From assembly GCA_938010045.1 (NCBI GenBank), contig CALLFZ010000042.1, positions 1 to 40,579 on the forward strand: DNA of 40,579 nucleotides. Reading direction: 5' to 3'. Under the pieces are notes generated by a model that was not told where the DNA came from, did no database searches, and was given only the letters and a program-made list of their open reading frames with translations. This document shows, one piece after another, positions 34,419 to 40,489 of this stretch (positions within the stretch are counted from its first letter, which is position 1; every line of letters begins with the position of its first letter). Position numbers and translations under genes: made by a program. The DNA is from an uncultured bacterium. Its GTDB lineage: Bacteria > Verrucomicrobiota > Kiritimatiellia > PWTM01.

Positions 34419-35120
34419 TCAGCCCGCGCTGGAACGCGCGCGGGCCGCGGTGACGGCGCGGACGGAGGGACAGATCTCGGCCAGTGGGCACTGCCCGCAG
34501 CGCGGCCGAACCGCACGGCACACTTCGCGGCCTAACCGGATGAGGTTCAAATGCAGCTCGCCCGCGCGTCGCTGTGGAACGTGCGCTGCGATCCACTGCT
34601 GCGCCGCCGCCGCCGAAGCGCCGGAGCCCACCCAACCGAGGCGCCGGGCAAGCCGGTGGACGTGGGTGTCCACGGGGCACACGTCACGGCCAAATCCGAA
34701 CAACAGGACGCACGCCGCTGTCTTGGAGCCCACGCCCGGCAAGGCCGTGAGCAGCTTCATCGCTGGCTCGGTGGACATCTGCCTCAGGGGCGCCAGCGTC
34801 GGTCGGCCGAACTGCTCCGCCAACGCGTGGAGGATCCCCCGGATGCGCGCCGCCTTGACGTGGGCCAAACCGCTCTCGCGGATCGCGGCCGCGATCGCGT
34901 CGTGCGGCACGTGAACCGTATCGGCCCAGCGCGGGAACTGCCGACGCAGCTCGCGGAACGCCCGGTGAGCGGTCCGCTCGGTCGTGTGCTGCGAGAGCAC
35001 CGTGCCAATCAAAACGTCAAGCGGCGCATGCCGCGGCGCGACCGGCCGACCGTACCGTCGCCGGAGCCGGTCGGCAACGACGCGCACCCTCGCCCGGCCG
35101 TCGCGGCGCGTCGCGCTCAT
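34419..35120 (-). CDS. nth: Endonuclease III (Nth) DNA glycosylase/AP lyase
   Basis: Nth removes oxidised pyrimidines and nicks abasic sites in base-excision repair. The 233-residue protein has the helix-hairpin-helix LPGVGSKTAACVL with catalytic Lys133, the catalytic Asp151 in VDTHVHRLARRLG, and a C-x6-C-x2-C-x5-C [4Fe-4S] cluster site at Cys201, 208, 211 and 217. The early VLIGTVLSQHTTE matches the family, with H-T-T where Q-T/A-T is common. Its ATG overlaps the stop of the DUF362 gene, so it is the second gene of a two-gene operon. The C-terminal tail after the cluster is short and Ala/Arg-rich. Confidence 0.92.
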   Translation of the reverse strand: MSATRRDGRARVRVVADRLRRRYGRPVAPRHAPLDVLIGTVLSQHTTERTAHRAFRELRRQFPRWADTVHVPHDAIAAAIRESGLAHVKAARIRGILHALAEQFGRPTLAPLRQMSTEPAMKLLTALPGVGSKTAACVLLFGFGRDVCPVDTHVHRLARRLGWVGSGASAAAAQQWIAAHVPQRRAGELHLNLIRLGREVCRAVRPRCGQCPLAEICPSVRAVTAARARSSAG

Positions 35121-36391
35121 CGGATCCCCCTCCGCCGCCGCTCCGGCGCTTCGCGCATCGCGGTCCATAGCACCCTGAGCGCGCTGCGCCAATGACGGCC
35201 GCGCCGCACCCACGGCCAGGCCGGTTCGGGCCCCACATCCACCCAGCCGTCTGCGTCCAGATCGTCCGGCGGAATCGCCCGCGCCTCCCAGTTCGCGAAC
35301 AACCGCCCCCACTCGCTGTGCAGCGCGGCCTCGATCTTCTCCCGATGCCGCGGATACCAGAAAAAATCATGGTAGAGAACGCTCGCCAGATACGACCATG
35401 GAGCGAGCGGACTTCTCAGCGACCATGCGAGCGGACCACGCAGCCGACCCCAGTAGATCGCATGCTGCATCCGCGCCGCAAAGGTCATCCGGCCATATGG
35501 CCCTTCGAACTGCCAGCGCTCGCCGGCGACATCGTCGTCGCCCACGATCCGAATCTCTCGCGGATCGCCGCACCCCAACCGCGCCTCGTGGGCCAGCCGC
35601 ACATACTTGAGGTCCCTCAATGGATCGAACCCCATGAGCCGCGCCGCGACCGCGTCAATTGCGACCATATCGGCCGAGGCCAGCAGCACGTTCTTGATGT
35701 GCGGCGTCATGCATCTCGGTCCCGGGCCGTCACCCGCAAACGTGCCGTCCATGACCGCGAACAAGCCGCTGTGAATGTGTCGTTGAATCTGGAGCAGGTC
35801 CACCAGCGTTTCGTGGATCACCGGATGGGTCCAGTGGCGGTGCTCGTTCAGCAACCCGCCAAACGCGTTCTTCATCGCCCCCGTGGTCGTGGTGAACACG
35901 TGGGTCTTCACGGTGGGCAGGTGCACGATGTTGGCACCGAGGAACCGCCGCGGAATGTGAAAGCCGTCCGGGTAGACGCGGTTCAACGCGAGAAACCGGT
36001 CCGCGAGTCCGCCCACCGCCTCACGAATGTGCACCCACTCGGTCTCGGGATCGTACAAATGCACGTTGCCCACACGATGGGCCTCGACGACGGGCAGGTG
36101 ACGGTTCTCCTGCTCCCCGAGCCGCGCGTCAATCACCACCGTTCGATTGTGGCAGGCCCAGAGCCGCTCGACCGGATGACCGAACCGGCGCAGCGCTCGA
36201 ATGACACCGTCGAGCTGCCAAGGCGTCGTGGAGCAGGCAGGGAAAAAGTAGTGCCAACTGATGTTGACCTTCAGCGCCGTATCGCGGCCCGCCGGCAACA
36301 CCTCGCGCGCTCCGGCCAGTTCCATCACGCGACGGATGTCCCGCAGCACAGTGGCCGGCGACGTCCGAACCACGGCAACAACGGAGCTCAT
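35117..36391 (-). CDS. DUF362 domain protein
   Basis: A 424-residue protein with the DUF362 domain: VVAVVRTSPATVLRDIRRVMELAG, then ALKVNISWHYFFPACSTTPW, ANIVHLPTVKTHVFTTTTGAMKNAFGGLLNEHRHW, LFAVMDGTFAGDGPGPR and LASADMVAIDAVAARLMGF. The lysine-bearing PTVKTHVFTTTTGAMKN segment is the family core. DUF362 is of unknown function and is frequently linked to iron-sulfur or ferredoxin genes; no ferredoxin Cys motif is present in this protein. The C-terminal 120 residues (from about 305) are rich in Trp, Tyr and Arg and may contact a membrane. It has a 4-bp overlap with nth and a probable leaderless start. Confidence 0.8.
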   Translation of the reverse strand: MSSVVAVVRTSPATVLRDIRRVMELAGAREVLPAGRDTALKVNISWHYFFPACSTTPWQLDGVIRALRRFGHPVERLWACHNRTVVIDARLGEQENRHLPVVEAHRVGNVHLYDPETEWVHIREAVGGLADRFLALNRVYPDGFHIPRRFLGANIVHLPTVKTHVFTTTTGAMKNAFGGLLNEHRHWTHPVIHETLVDLLQIQRHIHSGLFAVMDGTFAGDGPGPRCMTPHIKNVLLASADMVAIDAVAARLMGFDPLRDLKYVRLAHEARLGCGDPREIRIVGDDDVAGERWQFEGPYGRMTFAARMQHAIYWGRLRGPLAWSLRSPLAPWSYLASVLYHDFFWYPRHREKIEAALHSEWGRLFANWEARAIPPDDLDADGWVDVGPEPAWPWVRRGRHWRSALRVLWTAMREAPERRRRGIR

Positions 36392-36404: not shown

Positions 36405-36478
36405 GCCGGCCGGCCGGCCGTTGCACGAGCATGCACAGGCTGAAGTGCGCGGCGCGTCACGCGCCAGTTGAACCATCC

Positions 36479-36527
36479 GCAAACAGTGAGCAAACGGATT
36501 GCAAACCCACCGCAACCAGAATTTAAA
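36479..36527 (+). promoter_or_regulatory. Four 11-bp-spaced direct repeats (Pho-box-like) and -10 of the porin-phoU operon
   Basis: GCAAAC occurs at 36479, 36490 and 36501, and GCAACC at 36512, an exact 11-bp period. TTTAAA (36522-36527) follows as a candidate -10, with TTGCAA (36499-36504) at a 17-bp spacer as a possible weak -35 inside the array. PhoB/PhoP-type regulators bind tandem direct repeats with an 11-bp period just upstream of the -10. With phoU in the operon, phosphate control is the natural reading. The hexamer itself differs from the E. coli box. The leader from here to the ATG is about 100 nt. Confidence 0.6.
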
Positions 36528-36633: not shown

Positions 36634-37737
36634 ATGAACCACCGAACGATCGTGGTCGCGGCGTTCGCGGTCGGTACCGCCGCCCGCGCCGCCTGGTATG
36701 AAGAGATGAAAGCCTCGGCCGATGTTCGATACCGATTCGAGTACATTGACGAGGAAGGCAAGGACTCGCGAGAGCGCGACCGCATTCGCGCGCGGCTGGA
36801 GGTGACGGCGCCGGTCAATAAGGAGGTCACCCTCGGGCTGCGGCTCACGACCTCGGAAGAGGCCAACGGAGAAGGCGATCCGCTGTCGGGCAACACAACG
36901 CTCTCTAACCTCGGGACCAAAAAGGGAATCTTCTTCGATCTCGCCTACGTGGAATGGACGCCCGCGGTGGTGCCCGGCCTCGGGGTGGTCGCGGGAAAAA
37001 TGAGCAATCCCTTCATCTGCGTCGGAGACTACCTCTGGGACCATGACTACACGCCGGAGGGCATCGCGGCGCGATGGAGTCTCGGCGACGAATGGAAGGT
37101 CCGCGCCGCCGCCGCCTATCACTGGATCCAGGAGCGCCCCGCGGACGATGACTCCATGATGCTCGGCGGCCAACTCGCGCTCGTCGCGCCGGTGGCCGAC
37201 AACGCGTCGCTGACCCTCGGCGGCAGCCTGTTCGGCTTCACGGAAATGGAGGGCCGTCCAGTGCTGGACTGGAAGGATCAGAACCGCACCCTCGGCAACC
37301 ACACCCGGGCGCGCATCGTCGACTCGCAGACCAACCAGGTATACGCGACCGGCTTCACCACGGCGGAGGGATTCGCCTCGCTGGGACTGGATGTGGGTGT
37401 GCCCGTGGTGCTGTTCGGATCGGCGGCCGTGAATACCGATGCCGACGACGACAACACCGGATGGATGGCCGGCATCAAGGTCGGTAGACTCTCGAAGCCC
37501 GGCTCGGTGCAGTTCAGCTACGACTATCGCCGCCTCGAAGCCGACGTGAGCCCCGGCGCGTTCACCGACTCCGACTCGTTCGGCGGCGGAACGGACGCCC
37601 AGGGTCACAAGTTCCAGGTCGCGGTGCAGGCGCTCAAGAACGTGCAGGCGGCGGTCACATATTTCCACGACGAGAAGCATCTGGACGATCCCCGCGACTA
37701 TCATCGCCTTCAGGTGGATTTCATGGCAAGGTTCTGA
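36634..37737 (+). CDS. Putative outer-membrane porin
   Basis: A 367-residue exported protein with a short signal peptide (MNHRTIVVAAFAVGTAARA). The mature part is a series of amphipathic strands with alternating residues (KASADVRYRFEYIDEEGKD, IRARLEVTAPVNKEVTLGLRLTTSEEAN, FDLAYVEWTPAVVPGLGVVAGKMSNPF) and ends in the C-terminal pattern HRLQVDFMARF, with a final Phe as required for outer-membrane beta-barrels. It resembles the putative-porin family that includes short-chain barrels of PVC bacteria. phoU follows 37 bp downstream and a Pho-box-like array lies upstream, so a phosphate-starvation porin, functionally like PhoE or OprP, is a reasonable inference. Confidence 0.8.
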   Translation: MNHRTIVVAAFAVGTAARAAWYEEMKASADVRYRFEYIDEEGKDSRERDRIRARLEVTAPVNKEVTLGLRLTTSEEANGEGDPLSGNTTLSNLGTKKGIFFDLAYVEWTPAVVPGLGVVAGKMSNPFICVGDYLWDHDYTPEGIAARWSLGDEWKVRAAAAYHWIQERPADDDSMMLGGQLALVAPVADNASLTLGGSLFGFTEMEGRPVLDWKDQNRTLGNHTRARIVDSQTNQVYATGFTTAEGFASLGLDVGVPVVLFGSAAVNTDADDDNTGWMAGIKVGRLSKPGSVQFSYDYRRLEADVSPGAFTDSDSFGGGTDAQGHKFQVAVQALKNVQAAVTYFHDEKHLDDPRDYHRLQVDFMARF

Positions 37738-37774: not shown

Positions 37775-38458
37775 ATGTCAGTGCATCTGCAGCGCGAGAC
37801 GAACCAGTTGAAGCAGCGGATCTTGGCCATGTGCGCGCGCGCGGAGCGTGCGGTGCAGGAGGCGGTGCAATCCCTCGCCGACCGCGATGTGGAGCGAGCG
37901 CAACGGCTAATCGAGGAGGACGACGTCCTCGACCGATTCGAGGTCGAAATTGAAGAGGAGTGCCTGAAAGTCCTCGCGCTGTACCAGCCGGTGGCGACGG
38001 ATTTGCGCTTCATTATCGCAGTGATGCGCCTCAGCGGCGATCTCGAGCGCATCGGCGACCTCGCCGTCCATATCGCAGAGCGCGTCATCGAGATCTGCCG
38101 TGAGCCGCCGGCCGGCCCGCCCGTGGAGTTCCGCCCGCTCGCAAGCCGCACCATCACGATGCTCCGCGAGAGCATTGACTCACTCATCGAACTGGACAGC
38201 GCGAAGGCCGCCCACGTGATCCGGTCGGACGACGAGGTGGACGCGGAGAACCGCGAAGTCGTGGATCAAATCAAGGCGAGAATCCGAGCCCATCCGGAGA
38301 ACCTCGATGTGGATCTGAACCTGATGGGCATCGCCCGGCACTTCGAGCGCATCGCCGACCACGCCGTCAACATCGCCGAGGACGTGATCTACCTGCTGGA
38401 AGGACGCATCGTGCGCCACGCCGATCTGGACGGCCGCACGGCCGGCGGTTCCCGCTGA
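37775..38458 (+). CDS. phoU: Phosphate signalling protein PhoU
   Basis: PhoU represses the Pho regulon through the PstSCAB transporter and the PhoR kinase. The 227-residue protein is the usual two three-helix bundles. The first metal-binding repeat is RFEVEIEEECLKVLALYQPVATDLRFI with DLERIGDLAVHIAE (about 54-102); the second is NREVVDQIKARI and HFERIADHAVNIAEDVIYLLEG. GGAGG stands 9 nt before the chosen ATG (GTG at 37769 is too close to it). No pst or phoBR genes are in the window, so the usual partners must be elsewhere. It is probably co-transcribed with the porin. Confidence 0.95.
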   Translation: MSVHLQRETNQLKQRILAMCARAERAVQEAVQSLADRDVERAQRLIEEDDVLDRFEVEIEEECLKVLALYQPVATDLRFIIAVMRLSGDLERIGDLAVHIAERVIEICREPPAGPPVEFRPLASRTITMLRESIDSLIELDSAKAAHVIRSDDEVDAENREVVDQIKARIRAHPENLDVDLNLMGIARHFERIADHAVNIAEDVIYLLEGRIVRHADLDGRTAGGSR

Positions 38459-39865: not shown

Positions 39866-40107
39866 CGTCCGGCCTCCTGGAATATCGACACCGCCCGCCG
39901 GCACGATCCCGCCCACGGCCGTTCGCGCCGCGCACCGGCGCGAATGTGCCGTGGCGACGGGGCCACGACAAGCCCAATGTTCCCGCCTCCACCGGTGCGA
40001 GCCGCGCGTATGCTCCCGCGAAGCCCTCCGCACCCAGCCGATTACGTCGTGGAGTGTTTCGAGGGGTGCGATGAGGGGTGTGCATGGGGGTGGAGTGCAC
40101 GTATGCC
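39866..40107. other. Intergenic stretch without recognisable gene
   Basis: Between the beta-propeller start and the right-end repeats I see only high-GC sequence. A GATATT about 10-20 bp before the propeller Shine-Dalgarno could be a -10, but no -35 pairs with it. Open frames here show no family features. Confidence 0.4.
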
Positions 40108-40164
40108 CCTTCTGCCTGTCCCCAATCGAATAGCTCCCTGTAGCTCCGGCGCTCTGCCGCCGGA
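40108..40164. repeat. 57-bp direct repeat, copy 1 (12-mer plus hairpin)
   Basis: CCTTCTGCCTGTCCCC is followed by AATCGAATAGCTCC and the GCTCCGGCGCTCTGCCGCCGGA hairpin (split here to stay brief). It is identical by eye to 40474-40530. The two copies diverge right after the hairpin. Confidence 0.85.
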
Positions 40165-40489
40165 ACCTCCCCGCCCAAATCTTCGGTTGCAATTGCGCTC
40201 GCGCCTAAGCTCGTGTCTGCGCTCGTGCCTGTCCCCAATCGATGCGCTCGTGCCTGTCCCCAATCGAGGACGGTGGACCGGGCACAGGCACCTGACAACC
40301 CGCCCCCCTGGCAACCCCAGGGGCCCCAATGGGGACAGGCACCAGACAAGGAGTCACAGTAGATTGAAAGCGAGATTGTTTCGTCGTCTGCGCATGTGCC
40401 CGCCCAAGTGCCTGTCCCCAATCGCACGCGGTGCCGCGGACCGGGGAGGACCGGGGACAGGCACCCGACGGCGCCTTCTGCCTGTCCCC
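40112..40489. repeat. Cluster of eight GTGCCTGTCCCC-type 12-mers (right end)
   Basis: Reverse-orientation copies are at 40112-40123 and 40478-40489 (first base C), 40225-40236, 40250-40261 and 40408-40419. Plus-orientation GGGGACAGGCAC copies are at 40280-40291 (one mismatch), 40331-40342 and 40453-40464. Most reverse copies continue as AATCG. The pair 40408/40453 forms a long inverted repeat around 33 bp. Confidence 0.8.

Follow-up and report, generated by a model that had tools for sequence, protein, structure and literature searches.

In the genome of an uncultured bacterium of the class Kiritimatiellia (Verrucomicrobiota), the hexamer GCAAAC is repeated at an 11-bp period upstream of a porin gene that is followed by phoU. 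Its homologues with names in public records also put the genome among Kiritimatiellia / Verrucomicrobiota. This raises the question if the array is a Pho box, i.e., the operator of a PhoB-type response regulator, and how far its spelling extends beyond this genome. In a first-pass annotation made from the DNA letters, the array was read as a likely Pho box and its hexamer was suggested to be the binding motif of the phylum. Here, the array was analyzed in its window (the whole stretch of DNA under study, 40,579 nucleotides), in the 3.2-Mb genome and in related genomes.

The repeat array and its neighboring genes

The array is located in an intergenic region of 242 bp between a divergent DUF362 gene and the porin gene. 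GCAAAC at 36479, 36490 and 36501 and GCAACC at 36512 were found with the bases reported in the first-pass annotation and at exact 11-bp steps, and TTGAAC at 36468-36473 was recognized as a further unit in the same register. The array thereby holds two or more direct-repeat units at an 11-bp period, namely four to five. Four units are also present at this place of the porin promoter in a sister species (G001, locus L006). The features of the region are as follows:

35117-36391, minus strand: DUF362 gene, divergent, bounding the intergenic region (Pfam PF04015, E = 1.2e-20)
36468-36473, plus strand: repeat unit TTGAAC, imperfect, upstream and in register, preceding the best site of the class-trained model
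36479-36484, plus strand: repeat unit GCAAAC (putative Pho-box unit), best-scoring site in 521 kb of the own genome
36490-36495, plus strand: repeat unit GCAAAC (putative Pho-box unit), from sequence reading and class-model score
36501-36506, plus strand: repeat unit GCAAAC, promoter-proximal in the preferred register, with CAGAAT exactly 10 bp further on
36512-36517, plus strand: GCAACC, fourth unit of the first-pass annotation, inside the 10 bp that separate the third GCAAAC from the preferred -10
36517-36522, plus strand: CAGAAT, preferred -10 hexamer, at the class-wide spacing of 10 bp from the third GCAAAC
36522-36527, plus strand: TTTAAA, earlier proposed -10, less favored, at distances of 15 bp from the third unit and 4 bp from GCAACC
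36634-37737, plus strand: porin gene of the Porin_5 family, 367 aa (Pfam PF16930, E = 4e-31)
37775-38458, plus strand: phoU, second gene in the operon (PF01895, E = 2.8e-44; TIGR02135 phoU_full, 205 bits, cut-off 130)

The profile matches to Porin_5 and to both phoU models agree with the earlier reading of the downstream genes as an outer-membrane barrel and PhoU. In relatives, phoR is encoded just upstream of the porin gene (e.g., G002, G004, G043, and G019) and phoU, pstS or pstB just downstream of it. The DUF362 gene is not thought to be a target, as the orientation of the array and the -10 face the porin gene. Porin homologues of Gammaproteobacteria, used as control, carry no 11-bp signal upstream and essentially no CTGTCAT boxes, which shows that Pho control is not general to the porin family.

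At the contig ends, positions 223-706 and 40112-40489 of the window are densely packed with GGGGACAGGCAC on either strand, with 17 matches against an expectation of 0.4, and an 80-bp direct repeat is present at 40105 and 40471. This dispersed repeat may have broken the assembly.

Regarding the chance level, the pattern (GCAAMC-N5)x2-GCAAMC, at most two mismatches being allowed, matches the window only at the array (mean of dinucleotide shuffles 0.01), and with up to one mismatch the array is the sole GCAANC triple in the 3.2-Mb genome, the reversed control giving none. When the 242-bp intergenic region was resampled and any hexamer was allowed, with up to one mismatch per copy, a four-copy array of 11-bp period turned up in 0.03% of the resampled sequences, and one of any period from 8 to 14 bp in 0.3%.

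A class-wide motif from related genomes

A tandem three-unit model was fitted to the 230-bp stretches preceding porin and phoB homologues, separately for every period between 7 and 16. The training set comprised 52 upstream regions of Kiritimatiellia relatives, with the genus of the window left out. De novo, period 11 reached 215 bits vs. at most 68 bits for the other periods, and mononucleotide-shuffled regions gave 14-30 bits. The consensus unit of the period-11 model is nCTaAc, with C at 0.73 in the first core position, T at 0.71 and A at 0.21 in the second, A at 0.56 and C at 0.31 in the third, A at 0.74 in the fourth, and C at 0.53 and T at 0.25 in the fifth; roughly a third of the 52 regions are without a convincing array. 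GCAAAC shows one core difference from the commonest class spelling, and the A at this position is the second-commonest base. Single arrays of two congeners, G002 and G003, contain both CAAAC and CTAAC units, which suggests that these are spellings of one unit. By these sequence comparisons, GCAAAC is a local spelling of a Kiritimatiellia motif nCTAAC/nCTCAC with 11-bp period.

A plain weight matrix was used for these searches, as the filters of covariance models proved too insensitive for a short degenerate motif: a model without structure (R1, 27 sites) returned no matches, not even at loci with established arrays. For three congeners, the porin promoters were aligned with MAFFT, but the alignment broke the register of the array and was uninformative.

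Related sites in the own genome

The background for the own genome was a sample of 521 kb of the 3.2 Mb, Pho loci included, i.e., about 1.04 million positions. Scored with the class model, from which the own genus was held out, the array ranks first among these positions with 23.0 bits, and the promoters of phoU2-pst1, phoBR and pst2 reach 19.7, 19.0 and 16.7 bits, respectively. Compared with random 300-bp windows, all four are within the top 0.07%. The upstream region of the second Porin_5 gene of the genome (contig C18) scores only 7.0 bits. The three further sites all proceed in 11-bp steps:

Contig C9, 9719-9762: phoU2-pst1 array TTAAC-TTGAC-CTAAC-TTGAC
Contig C36, 117247-117290, minus strand: phoBR array CCAAAC-GCTCAC-CTAAAC-GGTGAC
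Contig C4, 43094-43126, minus strand: pst2 array CTTAC-CTAAC-GGAAC

The sites are degenerate, with units spelled differently from the class consensus, and no strict CTMAY triple was found in the own genome. As expected of a regulon motif, the same 11-bp motif family is common to the other phosphate promoters, preceding phoBR and both pst operons, so that the earlier expectation of arrays before other phosphate genes was borne out.

The pst1 operon is headed by a second PhoU (L041:9849-10940, same coordinates on C9; PhoU domain at residues 10-217), which carries a C-terminal fusion to an arsenate-reductase/low-molecular-weight-phosphatase-like domain (ArsC-type, residues 228-333, below the family cut-off). 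Further downstream in this operon, a tandem pair of pstB-like ATPase genes is encoded (L041:13770-15283, C9), a doubling that is also seen in several relatives. Many high motif scores fall into an AT-rich island of the otherwise 68% GC genome (L206:3780-5740, about 117780-119740 of C26), perhaps a foreign insertion.

Promoter geometry and register of the array

Across 36 sites, the mean -10 score peaks only at 10 bp past the last unit (z = 4.0), while an offset of 15 bp yields z = 1.2. A Pho box lies 10 bp upstream of the -10 and replaces the -35 element, and this arrangement was found class-wide and, via CAGAAT, at the array. In the sister species G001 (L006), the last of the four units, TCAAC, is followed after 10 bp by CAGAAT as well. 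At the own phoBR and pst1 promoters, the 10-bp spacing, judged by eye, is less clear.

Given the class-wide spacing rule, CAGAAT is taken as the -10, and the register preferred from the sequence is TTGAAC plus three GCAAAC units, 10 bp, and CAGAAT. In the first-pass annotation the same kind of operator was read in another register, with four GCAAMC units ending just before TTTAAA as -10. GCAACC is exactly in phase, and TTTAAA is AT-rich and near a -10 in sequence. However, the -10 signal lies at 10 bp past the last unit, not at 4 or 15 bp, and CAGAAT fits this rule and recurs in G001, so that the earlier register is the less likely variant of the Pho box. GCAACC falls into the spacer and is possibly an accidental or an overlapping weak unit. 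TTTAAA as -10 does not follow the spacing rule and is less likely than CAGAAT.

Distribution in the class and in the phylum

Among 58 relatives, 48 exact CTMAY triples were found vs. 10 in the reversed control. For 30 of these matches the loci were retrieved, and 19 precede phosphate-linked genes: a porin gene in nine cases, pstS/pstC in five, phoB in two, a Na/Pi symporter gene in two (identified by eye from the translation), and phoU2-pst in one. Related arrays precede pstS in G003, G004 and G008, and phoB in G001. Before the porin gene, arrays were found in the genus, the family and the class, so that the conservation on which the first-pass annotation had made its reading depend is observed, and the motif is kept before orthologous genes of related genomes for both the porin and the phoB upstream regions. 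The relaxed pattern CWMAY x3 gave a weak excess in nine family members (14 matches vs. 6 in the control).

In 289 genomes across the phylum, class members account for about 70 strict matches vs. 16 in controls, whereas genomes outside the class show about 48 vs. 41 reversed controls, i.e., no overall excess. The strict motif is thus a class-level motif. GCAAAC as motif of the phylum was dropped, as the strict class motif is no more frequent than its reversed control outside the class, and the hexamer proved to be a variant of the class consensus nCTAAC/nCTCAC. A few genomes outside the class (G174, G205, and G211) may share the strict motif.

Some arrays are placed before genes of other kinds. 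In G008 (L230, C76:6787-6824), the gene of an ABC-transporter ATPase has a strong array of four units (CTCAC, CTAAC, CTCAT, CTAAC) in front of it and is a candidate new member of the Pho regulon. In G022 (L214) and G024 (L236), arrays lie before genes for small predicted outer-membrane proteins that resemble each other (type YxDGDxQLW), the gene starting about 600 bp and about 100 bp downstream of the array, respectively; these are candidates for further regulon members. A relaxed-pattern match in G001 (L244) is not followed by a phosphate gene and may be due to chance.

The regulator and the proposed mechanism

In a profile search, two Trans_reg_C regulators were found in the own genome, one of PhoB type and the other on contig C26. 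The genes phoB and phoR are adjacent on C36, forming a cognate pair; the DNA-binding domain of PhoB is encoded within L043:12475-13161 on the minus strand. The best NCBIfam models are PhoB for the regulator and the PnpS/PhoR types for the kinase, with 233.8 of 296.2 bits and 302.7 of 334.2 bits, respectively; as these scores are below the equivalog cut-offs, the two names are based on the best-matching models, the adjacency of the genes and the regulon. Aligned with E. coli PhoB, the own PhoB shows 41% identity. In the E. coli complex, Arg201 makes a bond to a guanine (PMC3973317); the aligned residue is Asn in the own PhoB and Gly, Asn or Ser in relatives, and the absence of this Arg would fit a motif without TGTCA.

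Taken together, the array is very probably a Pho box (probability about 0.9), i.e., the predicted tandem operator of the own PhoB-type regulator in a local spelling of the class-wide box. This is the kind of element that had been proposed for it, and it is supported by the motif family at phoBR and both pst operons and by the conservation before the porin gene in the class. Under phosphate shortage, the PhoR-type kinase would phosphorylate PhoB, whose dimers would bind the 11-bp repeats head-to-tail on one face of the DNA, TTGAAC and the three GCAAAC units offering up to four monomer sites. Bound PhoB would then replace the missing -35 and recruit sigma-70 polymerase to CAGAAT 10 bp downstream, and transcription of porin-phoU would rise, providing an outer-membrane phosphate channel together with the feedback protein PhoU. 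Binding of PhoB to the array, its activation by phosphate shortage and the phosphate role of the porin are predictions from the DNA.

An operator of another OmpR-family regulator that binds 11-bp direct repeats, with a coincidental phosphate context, is very improbable: head-to-tail binding to tandem repeats is common to OmpR/PhoB types such as PmrA (PMC3973317), and the genome encodes the further Trans_reg_C protein on C26, but arrays of the same motif family stand before the own phoBR and the two pst operons, and before phosphate genes of other class members. A repeat due to chance or strand slippage, with no role in regulation, is still less credible, as short units, a GC-rich region and a spelling unique in the genome are set against an expectation of about 0.01 per window and 0.0003-0.003 per intergenic region and against a model from other genera only that puts its best site on the array, in register.

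As a Pho box the array is ordinary in kind, while the nCTAAC/nCTCAC motif itself appears undescribed. Among the open-access papers listed in searches on Pho boxes or PhoB in other phyla, none describes Pho regulation of Kiritimatiellia, which is weak evidence of absence. It can be suggested, tentatively and at somewhat less than even odds, that Kiritimatiellia have a Pho-box code of their own (nCTAAC/nCTCAC, 11 bp) with Arg201 absent, which is drifting towards CAAAC in the genus of the window and which controls a Porin_5 phosphate channel beside phoU or pstS. If true, the Porin_5 protein would constitute a new phosphate-porin family, and this uncharacterized family is by prediction tied to phosphate uptake. 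The analysis provides a Pho-box motif, derived by computation, for a class whose members are mostly represented by metagenome-assembled genomes, and with this motif the Pho regulons of uncultured Kiritimatiellia become predictable. It also provides a test case for the joint change of PhoB recognition and operator.

Comparison with known Pho systems

PhoE and OprP are outer-membrane phosphate porins induced by phosphate shortage. The Porin_5 protein is likewise an outer-membrane channel, for which the Pho-induced role is only predicted, and it differs from them in belonging to Pfam Porin_5; searched by sequence against solved structures, its profile gave no match even at E = 1.

The E. coli Pho box is built of direct repeats in tandem with an 11-bp period and lies 10 bp from the -10 (PMC1906773, PMC4415409), and both the period and the distance are the same here. 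In analogy to E. coli, a PhoB-PhoR pair is present and the predicted regulon encompasses pst, phoBR, phoU and a porin. All Pho-box features examined at the sequence level were found at the array except the E. coli consensus: as already seen in the first-pass annotation, the hexamer is unlike CTGTCAT, the unit being GCAAAC (core CAAAC) at the array and nCTAAC in the class (core CTAAC or CTCAC), and the own PhoB has Asn in place of Arg201. As the Pho-box consensus differs between species (PMC4415409), this mismatch is compatible with the status of a Pho box.

The Pho box of cyanobacterial SphR is CTTAACCT, with 8 bp plus a 3-bp linker and at least three units (PMC1906773). It shares with the Kiritimatiellia box the 11-bp period, the number of at least three units and a core, (T)TAAC, close to nCTAAC; however, it belongs to another phylum, and the Kiritimatiellia box shows frequent CTCAC and CAAAC units and a porin-phoU target. 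The PhoP box of Bacillus subtilis is of the TTAACA type, and the tandem 11-bp period and the TAAC core are common to both, although its regulator is that of a Firmicute.
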